Assembly (NCBI GenBank): GCA_903857825.1
Contig: CAIOGI010000002.1
Span: 1 to 37,325 of the forward strand
Origin: Candidatus Tayloriibacteriota bacterium
GTDB taxonomy: Bacteria; Patescibacteriota; Minisyncoccia; Phycocordibacterales; PALSA-1337
Direction of reading: 5' to 3'
DNA length: 37,325 bases
In this document: in pieces, positions 1-35,164 of the stretch
Layout: each line of letters opens with the position of its first letter
Position numbering within the stretch: position 1 is the first letter of the stretch
The notes under the pieces: model-generated
Seen by the model: the letters and a program-made list of their open reading frames with translations, nothing else
Told to the model about the DNA's origin: nothing
Database searches by the model: none
Translations under genes and position numbers: made by a program

Positions 1-3000
1 ACCGAGTCTTAAAACCCCTCCCTGACCTACGACTTGAAGACCAGTGCCACCAATTACAGATATTCCTCCAGTAGTGCCACTAACTGGTGAGTCTGCCGTT
101 AAAACATGTAAGGCATTTCCTGGTGCCGTCGTCCCGATGCCGACGTTGCCTGTATTATTTATACCCATCGCAAAAGTTTTTGTTGAACCATTCGTGTAAT
201 ACATAGCTACGCCGCCCGTTCTACCTGTATCGTTGTACGGAAATATCAAAGCATCAGCACTGCTTCCTGACATAACATTATCAGAACCAAGTGCAACCGC
301 GCCCGCCGACCCACTTCTTCTAAAAATAGAGACTGGATTAACACCAAACGCTGCAGATACCACATGTAAAGTCGTTTCTGGACTCGTCGTCCCAATGCCG
401 ACGTTGCCGCCGTTTATGTAACTGGCGCCGCTCGTCATTAATTTATTTACAATAGCGCTACCACCATACATTTCCAAGCTAGTATTATTAGCTGTGTTTC
501 CATCACTTATAATCGTAACGGTTGGATTTTTAGGAATCAAATATAAATTACCTGCATCGGCTGAAACTATTCCTCCAAAAGCACTTGACGACAAGGAAAT
601 AGCTGAATTTCCAGCGCCTGCCGTTTGAACTGTCAATGCGTGCGAAGGACTTGTCGTCCCGATGCCGACGTTGCCGGTGCCTCTCAATGTCATTACGGTT
701 GATTGAGAGGCAGCAGAAACCGCGTCATGAACACGAAAAGACATATGGGCGGCAGCAGCACTATCAGAAGAATTACTAAATATAGAGTTATAACGATTTC
801 CGTCTGTTGTTCTATTAAATCTAATGTTTTCAGTATCAACATCTGATGCACCCGCAGCAATAGTAAGTTTTGCCCCCGGACTCACCGTCCCGATGCCGAC
901 GTTGCCTTGAATTATTAATCCCCCAACTGGAGCCGTAGTGCCAGCATAACCAATACCAACACTTGCACCACCTGCAAACGCTGACTCACCTAACACTGAC
1001 AATTTTGAGACAGGTGTCGTCGTCCCGATGCCGACGTTGCCGCTCGTCATTGTTACCCACGGAGACGCACCACCATTAAGACCAAAACTTATAGTGTCAG
1101 GAGTTGAAAAGAATAATCCAGTAGGATGACTATAACCAAGTCCCGAATTTCCATAACCTTGATATGCTTTCGCAACAGCACCAATAGCGTATGTCTGATA
1201 AGCCTGACTCGTCCCATCAATTACAAAATTTGTTGAGGCATCGCCAGAAACATATAAACGCGAGGTCGGACTCGTCGTCCCGATGCCGACGTTGCCTTGA
1301 CTTGTAATTCTCAACCTTTCTGTAGGTGCTGTATCAGTTGAAACTGGGCGGGTGCCAAAAACTAAATCCCCATAAGCATTTCCTGCAGGATAGGTGGTAA
1401 CTAAGCCAATATAAGCTGTTGTGTTTGTTAATGTACTTCCTGCGGAATAACCGAAACCTATTTGAGACAGAGCTCCTGTCGTTCCAGCACTATCAATGTT
1501 TAATGCCGAACTAGCGAAAGCTCCAGCTGTAGTTACGATCCCAGGGTTTATGAATAATTTTCCCAGTGGCGCCGTCGTCCCGATGCCGACGTTGCCGGTG
1601 CTTGTAATAACCATTTTGTCCGAATTACCAACACGTAAACCAATAGAACCACCAGTGGCAACATTGAGGAGAGTATTTGAACCGGTTCCATATAATGCGT
1701 AATTCGTATCTGCAACAGCAGTATCACCGGTAAATCCAATAAACCCTCCGGACACCAAACTAACATTACCATTAACTGAAAGCTTGTTCCCTGGTCCCGT
1801 CGTCCCGATGCCGACGTTGCCTGTTGTATCTATTCTCATTTTCTCGACAGTGGCTATATCAAAAACAAGAGGATTGCCGTTTAAAATTAATTGCTGCGTT
1901 GAATCTGCTGCATTGCGTGCTCTCAACATCGCATAGGTTCCGCTACCGTTAAGTTCAGAATAAATCGAACTATTTGTACCAATCCAAGCAGTTCCATTCA
2001 CATCCAACTTCGCCCCTGGTCCCGTTGTCCCGATGCCGACGTTGCCTGTTGTATCAATCGTCATTCGTGCCGCACCATTTGTTCCTAGTTGCAAAGCGGT
2101 AGAGTTATTACTGAAAAGAGCCGTGGCATACGCTAAGCCGTTAGTTATAGTGTTGATACCAGCGCTATCAGTTACTCCAAAATATGCAGAACCTCCCGAA
2201 GTAGTGTTGTTAGATGCATTATACAAGTTATAACTTGTCCCTGCCCCTGAAAGGATTATTCCACCAAGTCCCGTAGTGCCAAGGGCTGTGCTATTCACAA
2301 CCAACGCCTTACCCGGCGTCGTCGTCCCGATGCCGACGTTGCCATTATCCAACGCCGTTATTAATGGAACATTATTAGAATTAGTTGTTTGAAAGTTTAC
2401 ACCAGTAGTAAGACCAGAACCTTTTACTGTTAGTTTAGCTGCTGGAGAAGTCGTCCCGATGCCGACGTTGCCGTTCATATAAATACTTGTCCCTTCAATT
2501 TCTATCTGAGATGGAGAATTTATACCATACCCTCCAATATAAAGATTTTTTACTCCATTATTATTTAAATTGACGCTTTCTAAATAATTTGTAGATGCAT
2601 CAGAAGCCAATAAGAACGAACCTAAATTATTTCCAAGCTGAGAAAAGAAAGTGTTAGCACCACTGTGAACATCTAACTTTACTCCTGGCGTCGTCGTCCC
2701 GATGCCGACGTTGCCGAGATTATTTATAATCATTGCATTCGCACCATCCGCACGAAAATTAATATTCAAACCCTGAATATCTAAATTTCTATTCCCTACT
2801 CCCGATTGAGTAGAAGTAATATAACCAGTGTTAGAGTTAAAATACATTTGTAGACCATTGGTGGCGGTAGAACCAGATCCACCAGATACTGCCAATACAC
2901 CATTTGTATCCAATTTTGCCAGTGGACTCGTCGTCCCGATGCCGACGTTGCCGCCTTGTGAATTTAACAAAAGATTTTTGTAATTATCTCCAAGTTTTCC

Positions 3001-5805
3001 AGCTTGTATAAAGCCACGGTCATTTACCGTATCATATCCCAAGTAAAGACGTTGATTAGAATTACTTGCACCTGATATTACAATTTGTCCTTGTTGCCAA
3101 TCAGAACTAGTATTATCTGCCTGAACATTTAACTTTGATAGCGGCACCGTCGTCCCGATGCCGACGTTGCCTGAAGAATTCCAAATTCCACTTCCTGGCA
3201 TATATGCATTTGATGATACTGAAAGATTTGTAGTAGAAGCATTATTAAAAGTTTGAACACCAGACCAAGTATTCGATACAGTAGTACTAGCTTTATTATT
3301 AAAAGTATTCCAATCAGTAGAAGAGAGCCAGCCATTCACACCAGTAGTAGACTGGGTCATGGATATAGTATTGTTTAAAATAGAAATAGGAGAAGTGGCA
3401 GAAGTAATACGATTTATATATGAAGTATTCCAATCAGTCGTAGAGGCAAAAAGAGGAATATTGTAAAGAGAAGTCAAAGAAAGAATTCCCGTTGAAGGAG
3501 TATAAGTCAAACCCGTTGCAGTATTTGATATAGAATTACGAGCAGTAGTACTAGCGCGCACATCAGTATAAAAAAGATTAGAACCTTCTACTAAATTATT
3601 TGTATTAATGGATAAAGATGAAGTAGCTACTGCAGACACCGCTCCATTTGTTCCCCATAGTAGACCTGAGAGTGATCCAACTGATAGACCACCCGTTGTT
3701 GTTGTAGACGTTACCGCTAAGGTACCTGTGGCTGTTATATTTGCTCCTGTTATATTACCTGAGAAATATCCATCCCCTATGACTGTTAGTTTTGACGAGG
3801 GTGTGGATGAACCTATGCCAACATTTCCTGAAAAATAATTTTTACCCCCTGTAGAATACACAGCATACCCATTTGCATTTGACTGTGTGAAATGTGCTCC
3901 ATATCCAGTTGCAGAATTAGAAACACCTTGCACACCGTATAGACCAGAACCATACACGCCAGTACCACCCGTGTTACTTGAAATTCCATATATTGAATAT
4001 ATACCCGCCGGAGAAGTAGCCAGAGAAACAGAAGTTGTATCACTATATACTCCATATGCTCCACCAATATCACTTGCAAATGGATTTATTTTTGAATATA
4101 CACCATAAGCATTTAAAGCAGTTCCTCCTGATTCGACATAGGAACCATAAACATCTGAATCTTGAAAACTATTATACATTGATGCACTTGTATATTGACC
4201 GTATATATTTGAACCATGAAGAGTGCGTGAATTTACAATATTTAATCCTCTGGCATTGTTTCCAGCATTAATATCTAATTTATATGCTGGCGTCGTCGTC
4301 CCCATACCCACATTCCCCGTTGCTCTCCAAGCATTCGTTCCATCAGTAGTCCAATTTCCAGTAGTCGCACCACCTATGAGATTCCCAGCCCAGTATAGAT
4401 TATCACTATTTGCATAAAGAAGATTATTTGTTACAGACGGGGTTATATTTGTTAAATATATTGAACCATTCATAAATAATGATTCCAAAGTAGTAGAACC
4501 AGCTATAAGTGATCCTATGGTCGATGTACCAGAAATAGAAAGATTCGCTCCAGAAAAATCTCTAGTTCCGCCCGATACAGCATTTGTAATATTTGTATTA
4601 AAAGTATTTGTAAGCTCTGTAGCTGTATCTGTAACTGATCTGCCTATACTATTATATATAACATCTGTTTGTCTTACTTCATGAGTTGCTAAACCAGAAA
4701 GTTCATTTCTAAGATTATTCATATTATCATCTACGTATTTTTGATTCACACCAGTAGATACATATATAGGTTTTTCGACAACCTTAGTAGTCACAATATT
4801 ATTTGTATTACGATAAATAGTTGATGATGTTGCTACAGTATTATTGTATTCTTCCTTTGCTGAAAAAGGTGCTTGAACAAATACATTATCCTCAATACCA
4901 AGAAAATTACGAGCAACTGTTCTTATACTTCTACCAAAACTAACAAAGCCTTCTCCAATAGAAGAAAATACGGATGCACTCTGCTCACTTATATTCTCTG
5001 ATGTACTATTTATTCCATTCGAAACAGAATCAGAAATATTTGATAATGTATTGTGTGCATAGTCTCCATAATTATTAAGAATTCTAGTTAAAGCAAGATA
5101 TGCATCATGAGAAATATCAGACACACTATATATAGTATCTTTTGAAATTTCATAACTACTCTCTCCAATATTAAAAATATTTTCTTTAATATTATTCAAT
5201 CCCTCTCCAACTTGTGGATACTTTATAAAAGAAGCATACCCAAAAGATGATACAGAAATAAATAATAATAAAGCAGCAGCAAATGTTTTACTTGAAAAAT
5301 AATTAGTCTTCGTTTTAGAATATGATTTTGGAATCTCTATTATTTGAGCAACTTTAAAACTTTTTGCATTGTTAAAAATAGATTCTTTTTCATCATCTAC
5401 ATTTTCTGTATTCTCAACTTTCTCGTCAACCTTCCTGATTTCTATCACATTCTCTTTTTGTTCATCTAATATATAATCTTTTTCTTCAACAAGATTATTC
5501 TCCTTAGCAACATCTTCAGTACTAACATATTCACTTTTTATTTCTTTTGGGCTATCAATAACTTCTTTCTTAGGAAGAACAGTGTCGCCTGCAACCTCAT
5601 CATCTTCATCATTAGCATCTGCAATTGCTAATTTATAATTAATTATAGAATCTTCATTTACGAACCATGATCGTCCAAGCATTTTAGAATCAAGTTTTCC
5701 AGCTCTACAGAGTTGTCCAACATAATCACTAGTATATCCATAAAGCTCATGGACTCGTTTTGCCGATATGTACTTTTTATCGCCAATATTAAATGTATGA
5801 TTCAT
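1..5805 (-). CDS. Giant surface/tail-fibre-like protein, C-terminus outside window: N-terminal HTH-like domain, charged linker, single TM, then GNVGIGTT cassettes
   Basis: No in-frame stop in 1,935 codons (all + strand triplets from position 1 checked for tta/cta/tca). Start ATG is complement of 5803-5805 (MNHTFNIGDKKYISAKRVHELYGYTSDYVGQLCRAGKLDSKMLGRSWFVNEDSIINYK...). TM-like KTFAAALLLFISVSSFGYASF. All GNVGIGTT motifs are in this same frame. Confidence 0.93.
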   Translation of the reverse strand, partial: MNHTFNIGDKKYISAKRVHELYGYTSDYVGQLCRAGKLDSKMLGRSWFVNEDSIINYKLAIADANDEDDEVAGDTVLPKKEVIDSPKEIKSEYVSTEDVAKENNLVEEKDYILDEQKENVIEIRKVDEKVENTENVDDEKESIFNNAKSFKVAQIIEIPKSYSKTKTNYFSSKTFAAALLLFISVSSFGYASFIKYPQVGEGLNNIKENIFNIGESSYEISKDTIYSVSDISHDAYLALTRILNNYGDYAHNTLSNISDSVSNGINSTSENISEQSASVFSSIGEGFVSFGRSIRTVARNFLGIEDNVFVQAPFSAKEEYNNTVATSSTIYRNTNNIVTTKVVEKPIYVSTGVNQKYVDDNMNNLRNELSGLATHEVRQTDVIYNSIGRSVTDTATELTNTFNTNITNAVSGGTRDFSGANLSISGTSTIGSLIAGSTTLESLFMNGSIYLTNITPSVTNNLLYANSDNLYWAGNLIGGATTGNWTTDGTNAWRATGNVGMGTTTPAYKLDINAGNNARGLNIVNSRTLHGSNIYGQYTSASMYNSFQDSDVYGSYVESGGTALNAYGVYSKINPFASDIGGAYGVYSDTTSVSLATSPAGIYSIYGISSNTGGTGVYGSGLYGVQGVSNSATGYGAHFTQSNANGYAVYSTGGKNYFSGNVGIGSSTPSSKLTVIGDGYFSGNITGANITATGTLAVTSTTTTGGLSVGSLSGLLWGTNGAVSAVATSSLSINTNNLVEGSNLFYTDVRASTTARNSISNTATGLTYTPSTGILSLTSLYNIPLFASTTDWNTSYINRITSATSPISILNNTISMTQSTTGVNGWLSSTDWNTFNNKASTTVSNTWSGVQTFNNASTTNLSVSSNAYMPGSGIWNSSGNVGIGTTVPLSKLNVQADNTSSDWQQGQIVISGASNSNQRLYLGYDTVNDRGFIQAGKLGDNYKNLLLNSQGGNVGIGTTSPLAKLDTNGVLAVSGGSGSTATNGLQMYFNSNTGYITSTQSGVGNRNLDIQGLNINFRADGANAMIINNLGNVGIGTTTPGVKLDVHSGANTFFSQLGNNLGSFLLASDASTNYLESVNLNNNGVKNLYIGGYGINSPSQIEIEGTSIYMNGNVGIGTTSPAAKLTVKGSGLTTGVNFQTTNSNNVPLITALDNGNVGIGTTTPGKALVVNSTALGTTGLGGIILSGAGTSYNLYNASNNTTSGGSAYFGVTDSAGINTITNGLAYATALFSNNSTALQLGTNGAARMTIDTTGNVGIGTTGPGAKLDVNGTAWIGTNSSIYSELNGSGTYAMLRARNAADSTQQLILNGNPLVFDIATVEKMRIDTTGNVGIGTTGPGNKLSVNGNVSLVSGGFIGFTGDTAVADTNYALYGTGSNTLLNVATGGSIGLRVGNSDKMVITSTGNVGIGTTAPLGKLFINPGIVTTAGAFASSALNIDSAGTTGALSQIGFGYSAGSTLTNTTAYIGLVTTYPAGNAYGDLVFGTRPVSTDTAPTERLRITSQGNVGIGTTSPTSRLYVSGDASTNFVIDGTSQAYQTYAIGAVAKAYQGYGNSGLGYSHPTGLFFSTPDTISFGLNGGASPWVTMTSGNVGIGTTTPVSKLSVLGESAFAGGASVGIGYAGTTAPVGGLIIQGNVGIGTVSPGAKLTIAAGASDVDTENIRFNRTTDGNRYNSIFSNSSDSAAAAHMSFRVHDAVSAASQSTVMTLRGTGNVGIGTTSPSHALTVQTAGAGNSAISLSSSAFGGIVSADAGNLYLIPKNPTVTIISDGNTANNTSLEMYGGSAIVNKLMTSGASYINGGNVGIGTTSPETTLHVVSAAFGVNPVSIFRRSGSAGAVALGSDNVMSGSSADALIFPYNDTGRTGGVAMYYTNGSTKTFAMGINNTGNVGIGTTAPGNALHVLTADSPVSGTTGGISVIGGTGLQVVGQGGVLRLG
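127..4320 (-). repeat. 16 copies of a G-N-V-G-I-G-T-T coding motif (14 canonical, 2 degenerate) inside the giant ORF
   Basis: The 20-mer gtcccgatgccgacgttgcc is identical in 13 of 14 canonical copies (the copy ending at 408 has one substitution). Copies end at 150, 408, 675, 906, 1041, 1296, 1596, 1821, 2046, 2343, 2472, 2715, 2952, 3171; degenerate copies end at 3828 and 4317. Confidence 0.95.
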
Positions 5806-22583: not shown

Positions 22584-23792
22584 CTACTGCGACCCTGCAA
22601 TATTATAAATAGGTATGAGGACAGAGGCTAGAAGCACAGCGACACCACCTCCAAGACACACTATCATGAGGGGTTCAATAAGATCTACGAGCGCGTCAAC
22701 AGCAGTAGTAACTTCACGAGCATAAAATCTTGCAAGAGTTTTCAAGATAGCACCAAGTTCACCAGACTCTTCTCCAACCTTAATCATTTGAATCATAATT
22801 CCTGGAATTTCACTATTATTTGAAAGTGCCTCAGATACAGCCTTACCTCCTCTTACAGAATCCACTGCATCAGCAAGAATTTTTTGATATACAGTATTGT
22901 TTATAACAGAAGAAGTCAATTCTAGAGCACGAATCATAGGAATTCCCGAAACCAGCATTGTATTCATATTGTCTGCAAGTCTTGACCAATATAATTTTCT
23001 AAATAAGGCACCAACATAAGGCACACCCAACTTAACTTTATCAAATATCTCTTTACCTGTAGGTGTTCTTATATATTTGACCAAGAAAAATCCACCGATA
23101 ATCACCGCACCGAGTACGATAAAACCATAACTAGTTAGGAAATTACTAATACCAAGTATAATTTTTGTATATATTGGAATTTCTTGACCTGAATCAGTAA
23201 GAATTGCACTAATCTTGGGAATAACCATAGTAAACATAAGAATCATAACTGTGATAAATGTCATAATAACAAAGGCAGGATATACCAATGCACCCTTTGC
23301 TTTTGATACAAGCTCATATGTACGGTCCAAATAATCAGCAAGATAGCTAAATGTATCATTTAATTTACCCGACTCTTCTCCAGCTTTCACCATACTTGTA
23401 TAGAATTCAGAAAAGATTTTTGGGTGTCTCGCTAAAGCTGCAGAAATTTGACTTCCTGATTGTAAGTCATCAGCAATAATATTTAGCTTCGAGCCAAGAA
23501 GTTTATTCTCTGTCTCAGCTCCCAATAGACGAAATATTCTCAACGCCGACACCTGTGCCTCAAAAAGTGTCGCCAACTGACGTGACAATATAACGACATC
23601 TTTGTTTGACACTCTCTCAAACCATGTAATGTTCATTGCCATGAGACCTTTCTTGGTTTCTGCTTCATTTATATTAAGAATAACCAAACCCCTTCTTTGT
23701 AAGGAAGAAATTGCAATGTCCACATTTACAGCATCTATTGTGCCATTTTTGGGAGCTGCTGTTTGATCTACCGCCTGATATGTAAAAAGCAT
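22584..23792 (-). CDS. pilC: Type IV pilus inner membrane platform protein
   Basis: Two GspF domains: SRQLATLFEAQVSALRIFRLLG... and LADNMNTMLVSGIPMIRALELTSSVINN; VKAGEESGKL/IKVGEESGEL repeats. Confidence 0.95.
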   Translation of the reverse strand: MLFTYQAVDQTAAPKNGTIDAVNVDIAISSLQRRGLVILNINEAETKKGLMAMNITWFERVSNKDVVILSRQLATLFEAQVSALRIFRLLGAETENKLLGSKLNIIADDLQSGSQISAALARHPKIFSEFYTSMVKAGEESGKLNDTFSYLADYLDRTYELVSKAKGALVYPAFVIMTFITVMILMFTMVIPKISAILTDSGQEIPIYTKIILGISNFLTSYGFIVLGAVIIGGFFLVKYIRTPTGKEIFDKVKLGVPYVGALFRKLYWSRLADNMNTMLVSGIPMIRALELTSSVINNTVYQKILADAVDSVRGGKAVSEALSNNSEIPGIMIQMIKVGEESGELGAILKTLARFYAREVTTAVDALVDLIEPLMIVCLGGGVAVLLASVLIPIYNIAGSQ

Positions 23793-23800
23793 AATATTTT

Positions 23801-24859
23801 TTAAATTAAACGATCTAGTATTCTAGGATCCGTAGAGTTCAGATATGCACTTTCTGTAGTTATTTCTCCGGCCCGGACCAGTTCAGCTAGAGAACGATGC
23901 ATATCTATCATACCATCTCCAGAACTAGTCTCTATAACAGTATTTATCTCATGAATTCTTTTTTCACGAATAAGATTTGATACAGCATTATTATTAATCA
24001 ATAGTTCATAAGCAGGAATCAAACCACCAGAAATACGAGGTATTAGACGCTGTGAAAATATACCAGTCATACTACTTGCTAGCTGAACTCGTATTTGATC
24101 TTGTTGCCCAGATGGGAATGAATCGATGATACGGTTGATTGTCTGTGCGGCGTTGTTTGTATGTAATGTAGAAAATACGAGGTGACCTGTTTCAGCCGCG
24201 GTCACAGCAGTGGCCATTGTCTCTATATCACGCATTTCACCAACAAGACAAACATCAATATCTTGTCTAAACATAGAAATAAGAGCATCTTTAAAGTCAG
24301 GAGTATCTATTCTAACCTCTCTTTGATCAATAGATGATTTCTTTGATTCGTATAGATATTCAACTGGATCCTCAATGGTCATAATATGCTCACTTCTTGT
24401 CTGATTTATCATTTCAATAAGCGCAGCAAGGGTCGTAGACTTACCTTGTCCTATTGGACCTACCACCAAAAAGAAACCCTGTTGCTTGTGTGTAAAGCTT
24501 TCCAAGATCGGAGGAAGATTCAGTTCTTCCAATGTCTTTATTTTCTTTGGAATAAGTCTCAATGCTACAGACAATGCACCTTGTCTATAGTATGCATTAC
24601 CTCGAAAACGAGATTCTACTAAACTGTACGAAAAATCCACATCCCTGTCTTTCTCCAATAGAATCTTATTTTTATCATTAAGAAAAACATCAAGGTATCC
24701 TTTCATGTCTACATCTGTAGTTATACTTTTTTTAGCCAAGGGTATTAGAGAACCTGCAACTCTAATAATAGGATGTCTGCCATCTGACAAATGGAGATCA
24801 GACGCATTCTCATTTACTACTAGATCAACCAATTGCTCAATTTCTTTTTTATAATCCAT
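23801..24859 (-). CDS. pilT: Twitching motility/retraction ATPase
   Basis: VVGPIGQGKSTTLAALIEMIN (Walker A), MTIEDPVEYLY, FRQDIDVCLVGEMRDIETMATAVTAAETGHLVFSTLHTNNAAQTINRIID. Confidence 0.94.
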   Translation of the reverse strand: MDYKKEIEQLVDLVVNENASDLHLSDGRHPIIRVAGSLIPLAKKSITTDVDMKGYLDVFLNDKNKILLEKDRDVDFSYSLVESRFRGNAYYRQGALSVALRLIPKKIKTLEELNLPPILESFTHKQQGFFLVVGPIGQGKSTTLAALIEMINQTRSEHIMTIEDPVEYLYESKKSSIDQREVRIDTPDFKDALISMFRQDIDVCLVGEMRDIETMATAVTAAETGHLVFSTLHTNNAAQTINRIIDSFPSGQQDQIRVQLASSMTGIFSQRLIPRISGGLIPAYELLINNNAVSNLIREKRIHEINTVIETSSGDGMIDMHRSLAELVRAGEITTESAYLNSTDPRILDRLI

Positions 24860-24860
24860 T

Positions 24861-25256
24861 TTATTGTTTGTTAACGGATGAATAAATCTTTTGAACCTCC
24901 GCCAAAACTTCAGAAGGAATCGTGGTTGCTTTTATTATATAACCGTCAACATCGAGTTGCTTCGCTTTGGCGACATCGTCAGTTAATCCCTGATTGGTTA
25001 GCATAATTATAACAGAATTCTTCGCAAGTTTCTCTGTTCTTATAGTTGATAGTAGATCAATTCCATTCATTCCAGGCATTACAACATCCAATAGAATAAT
25101 ATCTGGCTCTGATCCATCTCTAAGTAATTTCAAAGCATCTTCAGAGTTTTGTAATGTATGAACATCAAAACCATTATTAGAAAACTTGACAGAATACATA
25201 TCAAGTAGAAACTTATCATCGTCAACGAATAGAATACTTAATTGTTTTTTTTCCAT
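24861..25256 (-). CDS. Stand-alone CheY-like receiver domain protein
   Basis: LSILFVDDDKFLLDMYSVKF..., PDIILLDVVMPGMNGIDLL; no output domain. Confidence 0.92.
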   Translation of the reverse strand: MEKKQLSILFVDDDKFLLDMYSVKFSNNGFDVHTLQNSEDALKLLRDGSEPDIILLDVVMPGMNGIDLLSTIRTEKLAKNSVIIMLTNQGLTDDVAKAKQLDVDGYIIKATTIPSEVLAEVQKIYSSVNKQ

Positions 25257-25268
25257 ACTATTATTGTA

Positions 25269-26984
25269 CTATAATTTATTTACTTCCTCAAATGGAATAA
25301 TCTTCTTAAATGCCTTTATTAAAGCATCCTCTTTCATTGTTAGCATGCCCTTTTGTCTCAATACACGAGAAATCTCGATTTCATTTGGATTAGTCAATAT
25401 AATAGATTCAATATCTTTATCCATTTTCATAACTTCAAATACAGCCATTCTACCTCTAGTACCTCTAGGACAATCCGGTGTGGGTGTAATACCGTACACG
25501 GTATCAGAAAAAGGAATTTCTTTTTTATACTGCTCTGGAAGAGTTGAAAATTGTTTGTCGATCATCATTTTTATACTACCCTCAACTGGCATAGGTTTAC
25601 CAGCACCAGGTGGAAATGTTCCAACAAGTCTCTGTGCTATAGCCATTATGAGAGTTGGTGCAATAAGGTAAGGATCGATACCCATATCTATAAGACGAGG
25701 AATAACTCCAGCCGCATCATTGGTGTGAAGCGTAGAAAATACAAGGTGTCCAGTAAGGGCAGCCTGCACTGCGAGCTGAGCAGTTTCATTATCTCGAATC
25801 TCTCCAACCATGATTATGTCTGGATCTTGTCTAAGAGTTGTCCTAAGTCCAGATGCGAATGTATATCCAATTTCTGGCCGAACTTGTGATTGACTAACTC
25901 CTTCCATATTATATTCTATAGGATCTTCCAAAGACAAAACATTGTAAGCCTCTCTATCTACTTCATTTAACATCGAATAAAGCGATGTTGACTTACCAGA
26001 ACCTGTAGGACCTGTGATCAAGATTAGGCCATATGGACGCTGTATAGCTTCACGAATAGTCAATAGATTTTTTTCAGTAAGTCCTATCTGATCAAGGTTC
26101 TTTACACCCTTTTCCTGATCAAGAATACGCATCACGACCTTTTCGCCATAATACGCTGGAAATGTAGAAACACGGAAATCAATCTTCCTGCCATCTATTC
26201 TTGCAGAAAATCTACCGTCTTGAGGTTTACGCTTCTCATCAAGCTTCATATTTGACAACACTTTTATACGAGCAACCACAGCACTGTGTACTTGTGGTGG
26301 CAAAACCAAGCTTGTATTCAATGTACCATCAACACGAAATCTGACTCTCACTTTGTCCCTCATATGTTCAATGTGCACATCAGAAGCATTACCCTCGGTT
26401 GCATAACGTACAATAGTAGCTACTATTTTTACCACGGGAGCATCTTCAATTATTGATGACCCCTCGCTTTCATCCTCACTTGCTTTTCGTAATTTGACAA
26501 TACTTTCTGAGTCGACAGATAGCACAGTTTCCAATTCAGTAAGAGCTCTTGATACTTCTCCACTAATACCCTTATAAGATTCGATTACCTTTTGATAATC
26601 CTCTATAGTAATTAAAAAAACCTTATACGGAATGTTACTCTTCGCTGCAATAAAGTTCAATGCATCTCTTGCTTCTATATTATCTGGATCAACAATACCA
26701 ACTTCTAGAGTGCCCTCCTTAAGACCTATTGGTACAAATTTGTAATGTACAGCGGATTCTTCTGAAATATAATCCAATACTTCAAATGGAACAGATGCAT
26801 CTCCTATTGTTCTTACAGGAATATTTAAAAACTCACCTCTTGCTTGTAATATATCTTCTATACGGACACCCACTTCTAGCAATATCTTATCAATAGACTC
26901 TCCTGTTGAGATTCTCTCTTTAATCTCTCTAGTATTATCTTTTGTTATAAGATTTTTGTTTAAAAGTATATCTACTACACTCAT
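25269..26984 (-). CDS. pilB: Type IV pilus extension ATPase (GspE/PilB family)
   Basis: LITGPTGSGKSTSLYSMLNEVD, LRQDPDIIMVGEIRDNETAQLAVQAALTGHLVFSTLHTNDAAG. The zinc-binding cysteine cluster appears reduced. Confidence 0.95.
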   Translation of the reverse strand: MSVVDILLNKNLITKDNTREIKERISTGESIDKILLEVGVRIEDILQARGEFLNIPVRTIGDASVPFEVLDYISEESAVHYKFVPIGLKEGTLEVGIVDPDNIEARDALNFIAAKSNIPYKVFLITIEDYQKVIESYKGISGEVSRALTELETVLSVDSESIVKLRKASEDESEGSSIIEDAPVVKIVATIVRYATEGNASDVHIEHMRDKVRVRFRVDGTLNTSLVLPPQVHSAVVARIKVLSNMKLDEKRKPQDGRFSARIDGRKIDFRVSTFPAYYGEKVVMRILDQEKGVKNLDQIGLTEKNLLTIREAIQRPYGLILITGPTGSGKSTSLYSMLNEVDREAYNVLSLEDPIEYNMEGVSQSQVRPEIGYTFASGLRTTLRQDPDIIMVGEIRDNETAQLAVQAALTGHLVFSTLHTNDAAGVIPRLIDMGIDPYLIAPTLIMAIAQRLVGTFPPGAGKPMPVEGSIKMMIDKQFSTLPEQYKKEIPFSDTVYGITPTPDCPRGTRGRMAVFEVMKMDKDIESIILTNPNEIEISRVLRQKGMLTMKEDALIKAFKKIIPFEEVNKL

Positions 26985-27005
26985 ATATTATAATGATCAA
27001 TTATT

Positions 27006-27353
27006 CTATCTAGCTACCGAAGCTGGTCTAGCTGGAGTATAGTAAGGAGCAAATGGATTAGTCCTACCCACATTTTGTGTAGGAATTACTACAGTGTGAT
27101 CTGATAATAAAGCATATAATGGATCTGAGAATATAGTCTTATCTATTCTTAACATACTCATTTCTCCTAAAAGAGTTAGGATCTTTGCTGCCGCAATCTG
27201 AGTCTGCTGATCACCAATAGTCATAGTTTCATCAATAGAATTTATACTTGAATCAGATGGGCTACCTGATGAATAGAAATAAAATAATATGCCAGCTACT
27301 AGTATGGCTATGAATATAATTGTTGTCTTTGTGCTTGATGTAATATTTTTCAT
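27006..27353 (-). CDS. PilP-like pilus protein (short)
   Basis: TM anchor plus C-terminal VGRTNPFAPY, similar to the RxPF box of PilP/GspC; position after pilM-N-O. Confidence 0.5.
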   Translation of the reverse strand: MKNITSSTKTTIIFIAILVAGILFYFYSSGSPSDSSINSIDETMTIGDQQTQIAAAKILTLLGEMSMLRIDKTIFSDPLYALLSDHTVVIPTQNVGRTNPFAPYYTPARPASVAR

Positions 27354-27371
27354 TTTGATTCAAAAATTATA

Positions 27372-27944
27372 CTATTTAATCCAGTATGTTTTTAGTTCAA
27401 CTCCGTAATCATATACTCCACTATCAGTAGCCTTCACTGTTATTTTAGAAACTTTCATTATCCTAAGACTAGTTTCTAAATCTTTTAACAAATCAATAAA
27501 ATTCTGATACGTAGTGGAAACATCAAACGAAAGCACAACAGTATTATAATCAGCATTTGTCTCAATTTGTTCTGTAGTTTTATCGTTTATAGTATTTGCT
27601 TTTGATATTGATGTATTTATATTAGGTGCATTTGTTTTAACATTTTTCAATATTAAACCCCTACCCAATCCAATGCTCTTAACATCTAGTGTTAGACGAA
27701 CATTATCAATATTATCCGGAACCATCTTTTCTAGGCGCTCCTTATCATTATCACTAATCTGATTATAGTTAGCGACTATTTCATCTCTCTTTTTAATTAA
27801 TTTTTCAGAATTATCTATTGCCTCCTGATATCCAGCATTAACATTTTTAATAACCTTTATTTCCTCTATTTTACCTTTTGTAAAGGTAAAATAAATTCCT
27901 ATAGCGAGTATTAAAAGTATAATTGGTGTTGCATTCCTATTCAT
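27372..27944 (-). CDS. PilO-like pilus assembly protein
   Basis: N-terminal TM, coiled-coil, C-terminal ferredoxin-like region; synteny downstream of pilN. Confidence 0.7.
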   Translation of the reverse strand: MNRNATPIILLILAIGIYFTFTKGKIEEIKVIKNVNAGYQEAIDNSEKLIKKRDEIVANYNQISDNDKERLEKMVPDNIDNVRLTLDVKSIGLGRGLILKNVKTNAPNINTSISKANTINDKTTEQIETNADYNTVVLSFDVSTTYQNFIDLLKDLETSLRIMKVSKITVKATDSGVYDYGVELKTYWIK

Positions 27945-27950
27945 AATAAT

Positions 27951-28607
27951 TTATTGTGTTGGTGTATTAACTTGACTATTAACTGGGTTTGAATATTCTG
28001 GCATCAATTTAGTATATAACAAATCATCTGAGCTTATCATCCCACTAAAGCTAAACTGTACGCCACCGTTATCTTGTTCAGAAACATTAGAAATTACTGG
28101 ATTTTTTAATATTTTATATTTACCAAACTCTTTTGATTTGCCAAAAACGTCTGATTGATATGCTATAGCATAAGGATCTTTTGCTGTACCACTAAGTGTT
28201 ATCTTTATATCCTGAGAGTCCTTTGATGGTCCTTCAAAGGTAAAACTACTAAAACGCACATTTTCTACAGCCAATTGGCTTATTATTGAAAATACTTCAC
28301 CAGCAGATAAATGACTAGCCAAAAATTCTTTACTTAGGTTGAGCTTTTTATTTATTTTCTTCAATTCTTCTATAAGAGGAATATCAAATTTTTTCTCGCT
28401 ATCAGCTAATTTCTTTTTATAGTTTATTTGATCTTTATTTAATACACCAATCCAAACTACAGAAAATACTGCACCAACAATAGACGCTAGGAATAAAACT
28501 GTAGCAACAACCATTATTATGCTTGTACCCTTCTTTGCAGAAATAGCTTTCTGCTCTAATACGAGTGGTTTCTTAGGAATGAACGATGTTTGAAATTTTG
28601 TCTCCAT
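27951..28607 (-). CDS. PilN-like pilus assembly protein
   Basis: TM SIIMVVATVLFLASIVGAVFSVVW, PilN-like architecture; directly after pilM. Confidence 0.7.
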   Translation of the reverse strand: METKFQTSFIPKKPLVLEQKAISAKKGTSIIMVVATVLFLASIVGAVFSVVWIGVLNKDQINYKKKLADSEKKFDIPLIEELKKINKKLNLSKEFLASHLSAGEVFSIISQLAVENVRFSSFTFEGPSKDSQDIKITLSGTAKDPYAIAYQSDVFGKSKEFGKYKILKNPVISNVSEQDNGGVQFSFSGMISSDDLLYTKLMPEYSNPVNSQVNTPTQ

Positions 28608-28669
28608 TTATTTTAATTGTACTAGATAGCAATAGGAACATCAATAGCATGCGTGTGTATATCTTTCCA

Positions 28670-29788
28670 TTAATCAATTTCAGAAAGACGCCTAAGTGCA
28701 CAACCTATAGCAACAGCAAACTCTGGGCCAGCTTCTGCGAGTCTTTCTGCAAAGAAAGCTGGAGTTTCTATTTTGCTAAATGGATTTGCGTATTCGGTAT
28801 CTGTTTGAAAACTAATTTTTGCAAGATCAGTAAGACCCTTTAGAAGAACACTACCTCCAGTCAAAACTACTCTACTAATATTTTTCTGATATTTCCTTTG
28901 ATAGCTTAGCATGGTTGCATTTGCCTCATAGAATATATAATCTAGATTTACAGTTATAATCTCGGTTAATTCCTTATATTCTGGACCTCCCTTCAAACCA
29001 TATATTCTTTTAAGATTTTCTGCTTCATCAACAGGAATGCTTAATGATTTTGAAATCGCCATTGTTATGTCCTGTCCTCCACGATTAATAATATGCGAGG
29101 CCCTCAATATTCCTCTTTCGACAATATACAATTTAGTAATACCAGCGCCCATGTCTATAATCATTACTGCTTTATTTCCTTGATCAATCACTGAACGTAT
29201 AGAACTAAATAACTCTAATTCAAAAAATGTAGGCTCTATGCCAGATATAGAAGATATCGCTTGATAGTTATTTATATACTCATTATGAATAGCAACTACC
29301 AAAAAATCTTGATTCTTTTTTTCTGTTGTTTTTGATAAATCATTTTGATCTTCATTTGAATAACTATCTTCCTTAGGAATTGCTGAATAATCTAGGAGAA
29401 CTTCGCTCATGGCTACAGGAATATACTTTCTTGCCTCTAGGGATATCACGTCTGCTATCTGTTTTTCAGGTACGATAGGAACATTTACGAAAGTTACAAG
29501 ACTAGATGACAGCGGTAAAGAAATACCAGCTGCGACAGTTGTGGTCTTTGCCTCGCGGAGTATATCCTTGAGCGCTTCCGCAATCTTTTCTGGTGGAAGA
29601 TTCGTAGATCTTCCAATCTCTATACCTGCATAAGGCCCGAGCGACAGCTCTCCATATGTTTCTAAAACTGCGCGACCTCTTTTTTTCTTAATTTGAACAA
29701 CTTTTATAGCAGATGAGCCAATATCAATACCTAATACACTACTATTTTTCTTAAAGAATATAGAAAATATATTTCGCAAAAAATCCAT
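28670..29788 (-). CDS. pilM: Type IV pilus actin-like ATPase PilM
   Basis: VLGIDIGSSAIKVVQIKKKRGRAVLETYGE; AVMIIDMGAGITKLYIVERG; start moved to MDFLRNIF. Confidence 0.93.
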   Translation of the reverse strand: MDFLRNIFSIFFKKNSSVLGIDIGSSAIKVVQIKKKRGRAVLETYGELSLGPYAGIEIGRSTNLPPEKIAEALKDILREAKTTTVAAGISLPLSSSLVTFVNVPIVPEKQIADVISLEARKYIPVAMSEVLLDYSAIPKEDSYSNEDQNDLSKTTEKKNQDFLVVAIHNEYINNYQAISSISGIEPTFFELELFSSIRSVIDQGNKAVMIIDMGAGITKLYIVERGILRASHIINRGGQDITMAISKSLSIPVDEAENLKRIYGLKGGPEYKELTEIITVNLDYIFYEANATMLSYQRKYQKNISRVVLTGGSVLLKGLTDLAKISFQTDTEYANPFSKIETPAFFAERLAEAGPEFAVAIGCALRRLSEID

Positions 29789-29823
29789 ATGGATATTATA
29801 GCATAAGGGTGTAAAATAATGCG

Positions 29824-30450
29824 ATGTACACAATACTTCAACATATAATTGACTATTTATTTCCACCTACAAAAGAAGAAGTACGAATAAGATCAATTCC
29901 GATTGATTGGTTAAATATGAATTGCAAAAAAGCTCTACAGACTGAATTCCCTTTTATAAAAGCCGTATTCTCGTATAAGGATCCATTGATCAAAGAATTA
30001 ATTTGGCAAATTAAATATAAGAAAAATGCACACGCTATAGCCTGTGGAGCTTACGCACTCTATAGTGAACTTAACAAATATAAATATACCCTTACCCTTA
30101 TACCAATCCCCATTTCAAAAGAGCGCAGAAAAGAAAGAGGTTATAATCAATGTGAATTAATCATTGATGAAATACTTAAACTAGACAGAGAAAATATATT
30201 TATAAAAGATTACAACATACTCACGCGCGAAAAAGATATAGAAAAACAAACTCATAAAAATCGTAATGAAAGGATATCCAATACTAAACATATTTTTAAA
30301 GTAAACATGAAAAATGATGTAAATGATCTCAATCAAAAGATAATAATAATAGACGATGTTACAACTACTGGAAGTACACTAAAAGAAGCTCGTGATGAGC
30401 TTCTCAGAGTCGGCTACACTGATGTACGAGCTTTAACTATTGCGCACTAG
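29824..30450 (+). CDS. comF: ComF-family phosphoribosyltransferase-like protein
   Basis: LIPIPISKERRKERGYNQCELI and PRPP loop IIIIDDVTTTGSTLKEARDELLRVG. Confidence 0.88.
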   Translation: MYTILQHIIDYLFPPTKEEVRIRSIPIDWLNMNCKKALQTEFPFIKAVFSYKDPLIKELIWQIKYKKNAHAIACGAYALYSELNKYKYTLTLIPIPISKERRKERGYNQCELIIDEILKLDRENIFIKDYNILTREKDIEKQTHKNRNERISNTKHIFKVNMKNDVNDLNQKIIIIDDVTTTGSTLKEARDELLRVGYTDVRALTIAH

Positions 30451-32872: not shown

Positions 32873-35164
32873 ATGAACCCCAATTCCCATATCACAGACC
32901 ACGCTCGACTCATACCACCACAAAGGATAGCTTTAAAAAAGCTGGGTATTGAAACCGTGCATGATCTCCTATATCACTTCCCCTCAAGGTATGGCGACAC
33001 TTCAGAAACGAGAAATATTTCAACTCTAGAAAAGGGAGACGTAGCAGTTGTGTTTGGAAAAATTACTAAACTTAAAACCAGCAAAGGATTCAAGACAAAA
33101 ATTCCGATGGCAGACGCTTGGGTTGAGGATGAGAGTGGAAAGATCCATTGTGTCTGGTTCAATCAGCCATATTTAGCAAAGATGACACAAGAAGACGCGC
33201 TTGTGAGAATAGAGGGAAAGGTCTCGCAAAGAAGAAGTAAGAACCCGGAGCAAAGCGGAGAACTATATTTTTCTAATCCGAAGCTCGAAGTCGTAAACAA
33301 ACTACCAACTGGAGTCGGTGATTCCCTATTTGGTGATGACGGCAAATCTCACACATTATACCCGGTATATCCAGAGTCCCGAGGGATAACTTCAAATTGG
33401 ATTTATCATAAGATAATAGATGTTTTTAAAAATGGACTTCTTGATAAACTTGTTGATCCAATACCAAAAGAAATATTAGAAAAATACAATTTACCAAGTC
33501 TAAAGACTGCCCTGATCTGGATACACACACCAATGAAGCCCGAGGATGCGGAAGCAGCAAGAAAAAGATTTGCCTTTGAAGAAGTGTTCTTTATTCAATT
33601 AGAAAAACAAATCGCCAGAAAGGAATATGAGAAAAATCCAAGTTTCAAAATTGAAGCAATAGAAAAAAATGTAAATGAGTTTATAAAGCGATTCCCATTC
33701 GAAGCCACAGATGCTCAAAATAGTTCGATAAAAACGATTCTGGATGACTTTAGCAAAGACCATGCCATGTCTCGCCTTCTCGAGGGTGATGTAGGTTCCG
33801 GCAAGACCGCTGTAGCCGCGGTGACCGCCTACGCCGTAGTCACAACCACACCGAAGGGTCAAAAGTTTGGTAATTTACAAGTGGCTTATATGTGCCCCAC
33901 AGAGATACTCGCCACTCAACATTTCGAATCTTTTATTCAATATTTTTCATACCTTGGAATACAAGTTGGACTTATAACTGGAAGTGGGTGCAGAAAGTTC
34001 CCTTCAAAATTAAATCCAAAAGGCTGGACCAATATTTCACGAACACAACTTCTCAAATGGGTTGAGAACGGTGAAATACCAGTACTGATAGGCACACATG
34101 CCCTCATTCAAAAATCAGTAAAATTTAAACATCTCGCCTATGTGATCATAGACGAACAGCATCGCTTTGGATTGAAACAACGTGCAAGTTTAATGCAAAA
34201 AGAACTAGTGGGACTCGTGAAAAAGACTGTTGGAAGAGACACTTCGCAGCGCGACGGCGCGAGAATAGCGCAAAGCCAGCAGGCTTTGACGCGTGTTGAT
34301 GACAACAGTACTTTTTCACGAGTCCCCCACCTACTTTCAATGACCGCCACCCCCATCCCCCGCACATTAGCCCTAACCATTTACGGAGACCTCGATCTCA
34401 CACTACTTGACCAAATGCCTCACGGACGAAAGCCGATAATTACAGACATCGTAACACCAGACAGACGAGAAGAAATATATAAAAAGATAAAAATAGAATT
34501 AAAGGCTGGTCGCCAGGCCTATGTTATTTGTCCTAGAATAAATGAGCCAGATCCAGACAAGGAAGCTGCAGTAAATGCAAAATCGGTAAAAGAGGAGGCA
34601 AAAAGGTTAAAAGAAAAAGTGTTCCAAGAATATGAGATAGGAATACTACATAGCAAGATGAAGCCTAAAGAAAAAGATAGTGTAATGGCCGATTTTAAGT
34701 CTGGAAAAATCCATATACTATGCGCAACATCAGTAGTAGAAGTCGGTGTGAATGTTCCCAATGCAACAGTCATTATTATAGAAGGTGCTGAACGATTTGG
34801 ATTGGCACAACTCCATCAGCTACGAGGACGAGTCATACGATCAAATCATCAAGCATACTGCTATGTATTTGCAGAAACGAAATCTGACAAGACTTTTGAC
34901 AGACTATGTGCGCTGAAGACAGCTAGGAACGGCTTTGAACTAGCAGAATATGACTTGAAGTTCCGAGGTTCAGGTGAACTCTCTGGAGGAAAACAGTGGG
35001 GTGTCTCAGACATTGCCATGGAGGCATTAAAAAATATAAAGATGGTAGAGGCAGCAAGAACAGAAGCACAACTACTTATCACCCAGGACATCAAACTAGA
35101 AAAATATCCTCAAATACAAAGTAATTTAAAGGAAAGAAAAAGCGAAATAAAGCATTGGGAATAG
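32873..35164 (+). CDS. recG: ATP-dependent DNA helicase RecG
   Basis: LLEGDVGSGKTAVAAV, YVIIDEQHRFG, LLSMTATPIPRTLALT, GAERFGLAQLHQLRGRVIR. Confidence 0.96.
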   Translation: MNPNSHITDHARLIPPQRIALKKLGIETVHDLLYHFPSRYGDTSETRNISTLEKGDVAVVFGKITKLKTSKGFKTKIPMADAWVEDESGKIHCVWFNQPYLAKMTQEDALVRIEGKVSQRRSKNPEQSGELYFSNPKLEVVNKLPTGVGDSLFGDDGKSHTLYPVYPESRGITSNWIYHKIIDVFKNGLLDKLVDPIPKEILEKYNLPSLKTALIWIHTPMKPEDAEAARKRFAFEEVFFIQLEKQIARKEYEKNPSFKIEAIEKNVNEFIKRFPFEATDAQNSSIKTILDDFSKDHAMSRLLEGDVGSGKTAVAAVTAYAVVTTTPKGQKFGNLQVAYMCPTEILATQHFESFIQYFSYLGIQVGLITGSGCRKFPSKLNPKGWTNISRTQLLKWVENGEIPVLIGTHALIQKSVKFKHLAYVIIDEQHRFGLKQRASLMQKELVGLVKKTVGRDTSQRDGARIAQSQQALTRVDDNSTFSRVPHLLSMTATPIPRTLALTIYGDLDLTLLDQMPHGRKPIITDIVTPDRREEIYKKIKIELKAGRQAYVICPRINEPDPDKEAAVNAKSVKEEAKRLKEKVFQEYEIGILHSKMKPKEKDSVMADFKSGKIHILCATSVVEVGVNVPNATVIIIEGAERFGLAQLHQLRGRVIRSNHQAYCYVFAETKSDKTFDRLCALKTARNGFELAEYDLKFRGSGELSGGKQWGVSDIAMEALKNIKMVEAARTEAQLLITQDIKLEKYPQIQSNLKERKSEIKHWE
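34211..34325. repeat. Palindromic insertion inside recG, kept in frame
   Basis: ggactcgtgaaaaagactgttg (34211-34232) and caacagtactttttcacgagtcc (34303-34325) are inverted repeats with a single-nt bulge. Confidence 0.75.

Follow-up and report, generated by a model that had tools for sequence, protein, structure and literature searches.

Short repeats that border exchangeable gene segments are familiar from shufflons and phase-variation invertases, in which repeats of about 19–26 bp flank exchangeable C-terminal segments; their sites are inverted and are served by a dedicated recombinase. A 1998 study of T-even-like phages reportedly identified short conserved motifs within a fibre or adhesin gene as recombination points for variable segments. 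On the protein side, the MAT superfamily of Bdellovibrio bacteriovorus offers the closest comparison: the fibre protein Bd2133 (8ond) contains GNVGIGATAPTAKLEV loops between its β-helical modules, and one subgroup of the superfamily is characterized by a C-terminal S74 chaperone (PMC10769870). Invariance of the loop at the level of DNA is not reported in the available part of that paper (PMC10769870). A third related case is the hypervariable repeat gene of a Gracilibacterium, which codes for a CPR surface protein, breaks assemblies and varies between cells (PMC6851277). The literature that we searched contains no mention of NVGIGT, no description of the DNA-level behaviour of the loop motif and no paper on a joint of this type in Patescibacteria.

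Here we describe a fibre gene at the start of a 37,325-nucleotide stretch of DNA (hereafter the window; contig CAIOGI010000002.1, assembly GCA_903857825.1) from Candidatus Tayloriibacteriota bacterium. Its product resembles Bd2133 as a protein-level homologue with the loop motif between modules and an S74 chaperone. Unlike the MAT proteins, it belongs to a Patescibacterium, is probably anchored by a transmembrane segment and contains 19 copies of the motif within one gene, and the DNA of the loop is invariant. The likeness to the T-even-like exchange lies in short conserved motifs as candidate swap points, but that case concerns phage relatives, whereas here cellular many-cassette arrays have one spelling in common across families and phyla. 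As in shufflons, short repeats flank exchangeable segments; in contrast to shufflons, all copies are direct, in frame and inside the coding sequence, no adjacent enzyme was found, and the window proteins tested include no recombinase. The Gracilibacterium gene is likewise a CPR surface protein gene with repeats, yet it behaves in the opposite way: its peptide stays constant while the nucleotides are diversified, in 9-nt tandem repeats (PMC6851277). We consider it rather likely that homology between the anchor copies drives cassette exchange, both within the array and from other genomes.

Results and Discussion

In the translation of the window, the fibre gene appears as one open frame that is truncated by the contig end (Table 1). 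Another contig of the same genome (a 779-kb assembly in 13 contigs) begins with an open frame that contains three further exact copies of the 20-mer described below and a C-terminal S74 domain. We treat this frame (C5:1–1803, L009) as the probable other end of the window gene; the two contigs do not overlap, so at least a little of the gene is possibly missing between them. The S74 chaperone domain (PF13884) was detected with an E value of 1.6e-16, and its SDxxxK feature is present as SSDRNLKK. The window gene itself matches PHROGs tail-fibre entries (4.6e-32). A phmmer match to 8ond (5.9e-8) aligns GNVGIG..P..KL with the capping loop of the MAT proteins, although the consensus printed in the MAT paper places the proline one residue differently from the motif found here. 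The conserved, β-rich domain of about 130 residues that follows the signal peptide in MAT proteins proper was not found in the window gene. Because its N-terminus is helix-turn-helix-like and is followed by an internal transmembrane segment, we class the gene as MAT-like rather than as MAT proper. Homologues of the N-terminal domain lie on short proteins in five of six congeneric genomes; the fibre gene itself was not found in the congeners searched. Judged by these similarities, the protein belongs to a known type, the modular and putatively trimeric S74/MAT fibres. The gene product is best explained as a fibre of the phage-tail-fibre/MAT type that is trimeric and modular, anchored in the membrane and equipped with an S74 chaperone at its C-terminus.

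Table 1. Coordinates of the fibre gene, its motif copies and the shared cassette in the window
Feature	Position	Strand	Remark
Fibre gene	1..5805	-	1935 codons; C-terminal part probably on C5:1-1803 (L009)
N-terminal helix-turn-helix-like domain	5626..5769	-	HTH_17, E 0.078; weak, under the Pfam cut-off
Probable transmembrane segment TFAAALLLFISVSSFGYASFI	5224..5286	-	Read off the translation
N-proximal motif copy, GNVGMGTTTP	4267..4320	-	Ordinary codons (GGG AAT GTG GGT ATG GGG)
N-proximal motif copy, GNVGIGSSTP	3775..3831	-	Ordinary codons (GGA AAT GTT GGC ATA GGT)
Anchor	3148..3171	-	20-mer exact
Anchor	2929..2952	-	20-mer exact
Anchor	2692..2715	-	20-mer exact
Anchor	2449..2472	-	20-mer exact
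Anchor	2320..2343	-	20-mer exact
Anchor	2023..2046	-	20-mer exact
Anchor	1798..1821	-	20-mer exact
Anchor	1573..1596	-	20-mer exact
Anchor	1273..1296	-	20-mer exact
Anchor	1018..1041	-	20-mer exact; N-proximal border of shared cassette
Anchor	883..906	-	20-mer exact; C-proximal border of shared cassette, then ACG GTG
Anchor	652..675	-	20-mer exact
Anchor	385..408	-	One mismatch (ATT for ATC)
Anchor (24-mer)	127..150	-	20-mer exact
Shared cassette, including both anchors	883..1041	-	DNA identity 90% to G466 (family f160), 88% to G758 (family f4)

Many fibre genes of this type begin with a DNA-binding-like domain, which is either helix-turn-helix (GYTxDYIGQLCRxGK) or similar to the SAM-like domain of tyrosine recombinases. 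Besides the window gene (5626–5769), we noted such N-termini at L316, L476, L540, L542, L543, L546, L548, L561, L462, L468 and L478. In the window gene, this domain precedes the transmembrane segment, which is followed by the extracellular array. Several other loci of the genome were recorded alongside. Downstream of the fibre 3' end on C5 (L009 1964–5381) lie two small nucleotidyltransferase-like frames, each followed by a short frame; these pairs resemble MNT/HEPN, and a zinc-finger transposase-like frame lies in between. At about 42.6–44.5 kb, C1 encodes a 732-aa XerC/D-like tyrosine recombinase (L605 91–2289), whose conserved HIRH region is interrupted by about 420 intein-looking residues that start with CLHSDT and end with HN before a Ser. 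Type IV pilus genes (two secretion ATPases, a PilC-like T2SSF protein and PilM) together with recG occupy window positions 22584–29866 and 32873–35164.

The window contains 14 matches to gtcccgatgccgacgttgcc, of which 13 are exact, as counted in an earlier sequence-only reading; the remaining match (389–408) differs at one base. None are expected in shuffled sequence. All 14 lie inside the fibre gene as direct repeats in the same frame, encode GNVGIGT(T) and are spaced 129–300 nt from start to start. The near-invariant block is slightly longer than the 20-mer and measures about 24 nt (GGCAACGTCGGCATCGGGACGACG). When the three copies on C5 are added, the codons GGC AAC GTC GGC ATC GGG ACG ACG are nearly invariant among 17 copies: codon positions 0–6 are identical in 16–17 of the 17 (positions 4 and 6 each have a single exception), and position 7 is ACG in 13. 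This block has a rather sharp 5' edge, and conservation of the DNA ends together with the unbroken series of fixed residues. The conserved proline at +9 is encoded by CCA (9 copies), CCG (5), CCT (2) or CCC (1), and the conserved leucine at +13 by TTG (7), TTA (6), CTT (3) or CTA (1). Codon reading also bore out the ordinary spelling of the two N-proximal copies, which the sequence-only reading had pointed out. The intervening segments, described there as mostly unrelated, show no relation to one another in DNA.

Given the codon use of the array itself, the observed spelling has a probability of about 7e-7 per copy, and its codons are rare in the AT-rich host genome. The DNA is conserved beyond the constraint on the protein. 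Codon bias or import of GC-rich DNA was rejected as the cause, since the GC3 of the segments (0.12–0.36) is host-like (0.27 in the other genes of the host). We also rejected a diversity-generating retroelement, as the genome contains no reverse transcriptase (RVT_1), and ordinary concerted evolution of tandem repeats, as the segments are unrelated and only the 24-nt part is uniform. A search of the genome for the 20-mer outside the window gene and its continuation on C5 returned no copy. Two shorter paralogous GNVGIGT proteins (L037, C1:22500–27500; L038, C6:50500–55000) spell this peptide with a mixture of ordinary codons; their N-termini are related, and in stretches they are about 88% identical.

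A 20-mer coding for GNVGIGT occurs in 130 of 380 genomes of the phylum, in 673 copies. The canonical spelling, one of 1,536, accounts for 133 copies in 29 of the 380 genomes, and for 117 of 650 copies (18%) when the genome studied here is excluded. In some arrays, most copies are canonical (G230 5/5, G007 6/7, G246 13/16, G366 28/38), while others with the same protein motif contain no canonical copy (G162 0/46, G103 0/24, G233 0/20). At the level of the order, the canonical 20-mer was found in 42 of 397 genomes and 30 of 179 genera, with a distribution that is patchy even inside a genus. Exact copies are also present in viral contigs and in metagenome-assembled genomes of other bacterial phyla and DPANN archaea, bins that are possibly contaminated. 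An unbiased viral sample contained 2 canonical spellings among 139 copies against 0.06 expected, so that the spelling is no general feature of viruses. Several of our samples had been selected for the exact 20-mer and are unusable for frequencies; those quoted come from other samples. Homogeneous arrays nearly all have the canonical spelling, which is partly an effect of ascertainment. Shuffling codons within genomes left a weak signal among 150 copies from the phylum (12 canonical against 8.5, p 0.02), because the arrays are already homogeneous. Some arrays whose GC3 is higher than 0.6 have the spelling too. That one spelling is common to many phyla favours exchange between genomes over expansion of the array in place, the other process suggested by the sequence-only reading.

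Could a site-specific recombinase recognise the anchor, or could some other DNA-binding protein use it to rearrange or mark the array? A recognition site would account for an exact sequence of about 20 bp with a rather sharp 5' edge in several genomes; the genome does contain tyrosine recombinases, and several fibres of this type contain DNA-binding-like N-termini. We give this explanation a small chance. A second coherent spelling, GGGAATGTGGGGATTGGG, is over-represented (12 copies against 0.17 expected, at 10 loci), and many anchor variants with one or two mismatches exist; this second spelling is easier to reconcile with homology than with a unique protein-binding site. Moreover, the hosts span many phyla, the proteins tested in the window include no recombinase, and direct repeats are an arrangement that such an enzyme would delete.

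Exchange driven by anchor homology is consistent with the distribution of one particular cassette, which is shared with two genomes from other families (Table 1) and was found in no other sampled genome of its own family. In the comparison with G466, homology extends from the first base of one 20-mer to the last base of the other, and both outer neighbours of the cassette in G466 are unrelated to those in the window. In the comparison with G758, the left end of the homology coincides with the anchor, while weak similarity continues beyond the right anchor. As a control, the housekeeping gene pilB (pilus ATPase) is 66% identical to its counterparts in both genomes, so vertical descent fails to explain the 88–90% identity of the cassette. 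Other shared cassettes that end at motifs connect G466 with G632 and L375 with G747. Synonymous change in the anchors and in the interior of the shared cassette differs with p = 0.09, a comparison with too few sites, and an exact search of viral contigs for the first 29 nt of the cassette returned no match.

Alternatively, the whole gene may have been transferred and then expanded in place, by duplication of cassettes whose segments diverged fast while the motif did not change. We regard this as improbable, even though tandem and near-tandem cassette duplications are present in related arrays and the gene is missing from the congeners searched. Segments that have become unrelated imply saturated synonymous sites, yet those of the motif are not saturated and the codons of the conserved proline and leucine are randomised. 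Nor does expansion in place predict a cassette that is common to other families without its neighbours.

Anchor-driven exchange predicts that segment boundaries coincide with conserved motifs, and this is what we observed. Intra-array repeats of at least 98% identity end at motifs in 14 of 30 cases (2.2 expected), and homology between different arrays does so in 17 of 47 (5.5 expected); the ends of repeated or shared segments fall at motifs 3–6 times more often than by chance. Most homology endpoints lie away from motifs, so the anchor is favoured as a joint without being the sole one. At one junction in the congeners G034 and G011, the right cassettes are orthologous, the left cassettes are unrelated, and the motif differs as a block (GGCAACGTCGGCATCGGG versus GGTAATGTGGGAATTGGA). 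Related arrays also differ in whether two GIGTT motifs enclose a particular 39-residue cassette, and they include a 291-nt cassette that occurs twice, from motif to motif and in identical form, with a different cassette between the two copies. The proposal that the 20-mers are recombination seeds is strengthened for cassette exchange by the ends of the shared cassette, the endpoint enrichment and the switched junction. Recombination at the motif is supported by these sequence comparisons, and it is probably at the 24-base anchor that the gene exchanges old fibre pieces for new ones.

Synonymous conservation of the motif, which the sequence-only reading had suggested comparing with the flanks, is far above that of the flanks in this array. 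At stable junctions, where both flanks are homologous but diverged, codon identity is equal in motif and flanks (0.49 versus 0.49; 18 pairs, none canonical), a result that covers two gene families and is indicative. This equality argues against a requirement at the level of codons or RNA and ties the spelling to the turnover of junctions. It is thus very unlikely that selection on codons or RNA, for translation pausing or an RNA hairpin, maintains the spelling. The rarity of the anchor codons in this AT-rich genome and a possible 5-bp hairpin (-6 kcal/mol) would suit such selection, but many arrays of the same motif are entirely without the spelling, which also occurs where GC3 exceeds 0.6 and most of its codons should not be rare.

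The only same-gene pair that we found, in genomes other than the one studied here (L128 / G366; L128 versus L462), differs by about 1 kb of cassettes, at a scaffold N gap. Arrays often lie at contig ends: judged by the first base, this holds for 20 of 81 canonical contigs and for 5 of 48 others, a suggestive difference in hand-made counts (p = 0.06); arrays at contig ends may reflect population heterogeneity or merely repeats. An assembly chimera, in which reads from different genomes were joined at the 20-mer, would suit the many arrays that lie at contig ends, the one in the window included, but is extremely improbable given that canonical arrays also lie inside contigs of 455–819 kb and that segment GC3 fits the host.

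How might exchange driven by anchor homology work? The GNVGIGTTxPxxKL peptide would be a structural loop that joins β-helical modules. Since the motif corresponds to a loop of solved MAT fibres (Bd2133), breaks at this position would leave the modules intact. GNVGIGTT provides eight contiguous constrained residues, which makes one uninterrupted 24-bp identity tract possible; the isolated codons of Pro+9 and Leu+13 cannot extend this tract and would drift freely. Cassettes could then be swapped, duplicated or captured from loop to loop by recombination at the tract, within the array or from other genomes, and every such event would leave one anchor copy behind at the new junction. Exchange between genomes might follow DNA uptake; the genome contains type IV pilus genes and comEC. 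Cassettes with a common spelling would join most readily, so that one spelling would spread over unrelated arrays and hosts regardless of their codon use. Other points speak against this mechanism. A tract of 20–24 bp is short for RecA, and module boundaries placed in loops would also be expected if breaks occurred at random and selection retained only intact modules. Such selection on whole modules explains the boundaries, but not the spelling.

An extension of anchor-driven exchange is possible, although we hold it to be doubtful: the 20–24-bp coding sequence would be a common joint for a cassette pool of Patescibacteria, DPANN archaea, other bacteria and viruses. Such a pool would be integron-like but without an integrase; its joint would also be a protein loop, and would spread because its carriers join best.

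Conclusions

Episymbiotic Patescibacteria must recognise their hosts through surface structures, and the benefit of exchanging cassettes may be new binding specificities. A joint common to several families would offer a concrete explanation, open to testing, of why MAT/S74 fibres are mosaic, and would address the question as to how small genomes diversify giant fibres. The canonical spelling would furthermore provide a sequence tag for finding recently remodelled fibre genes in any metagenome.
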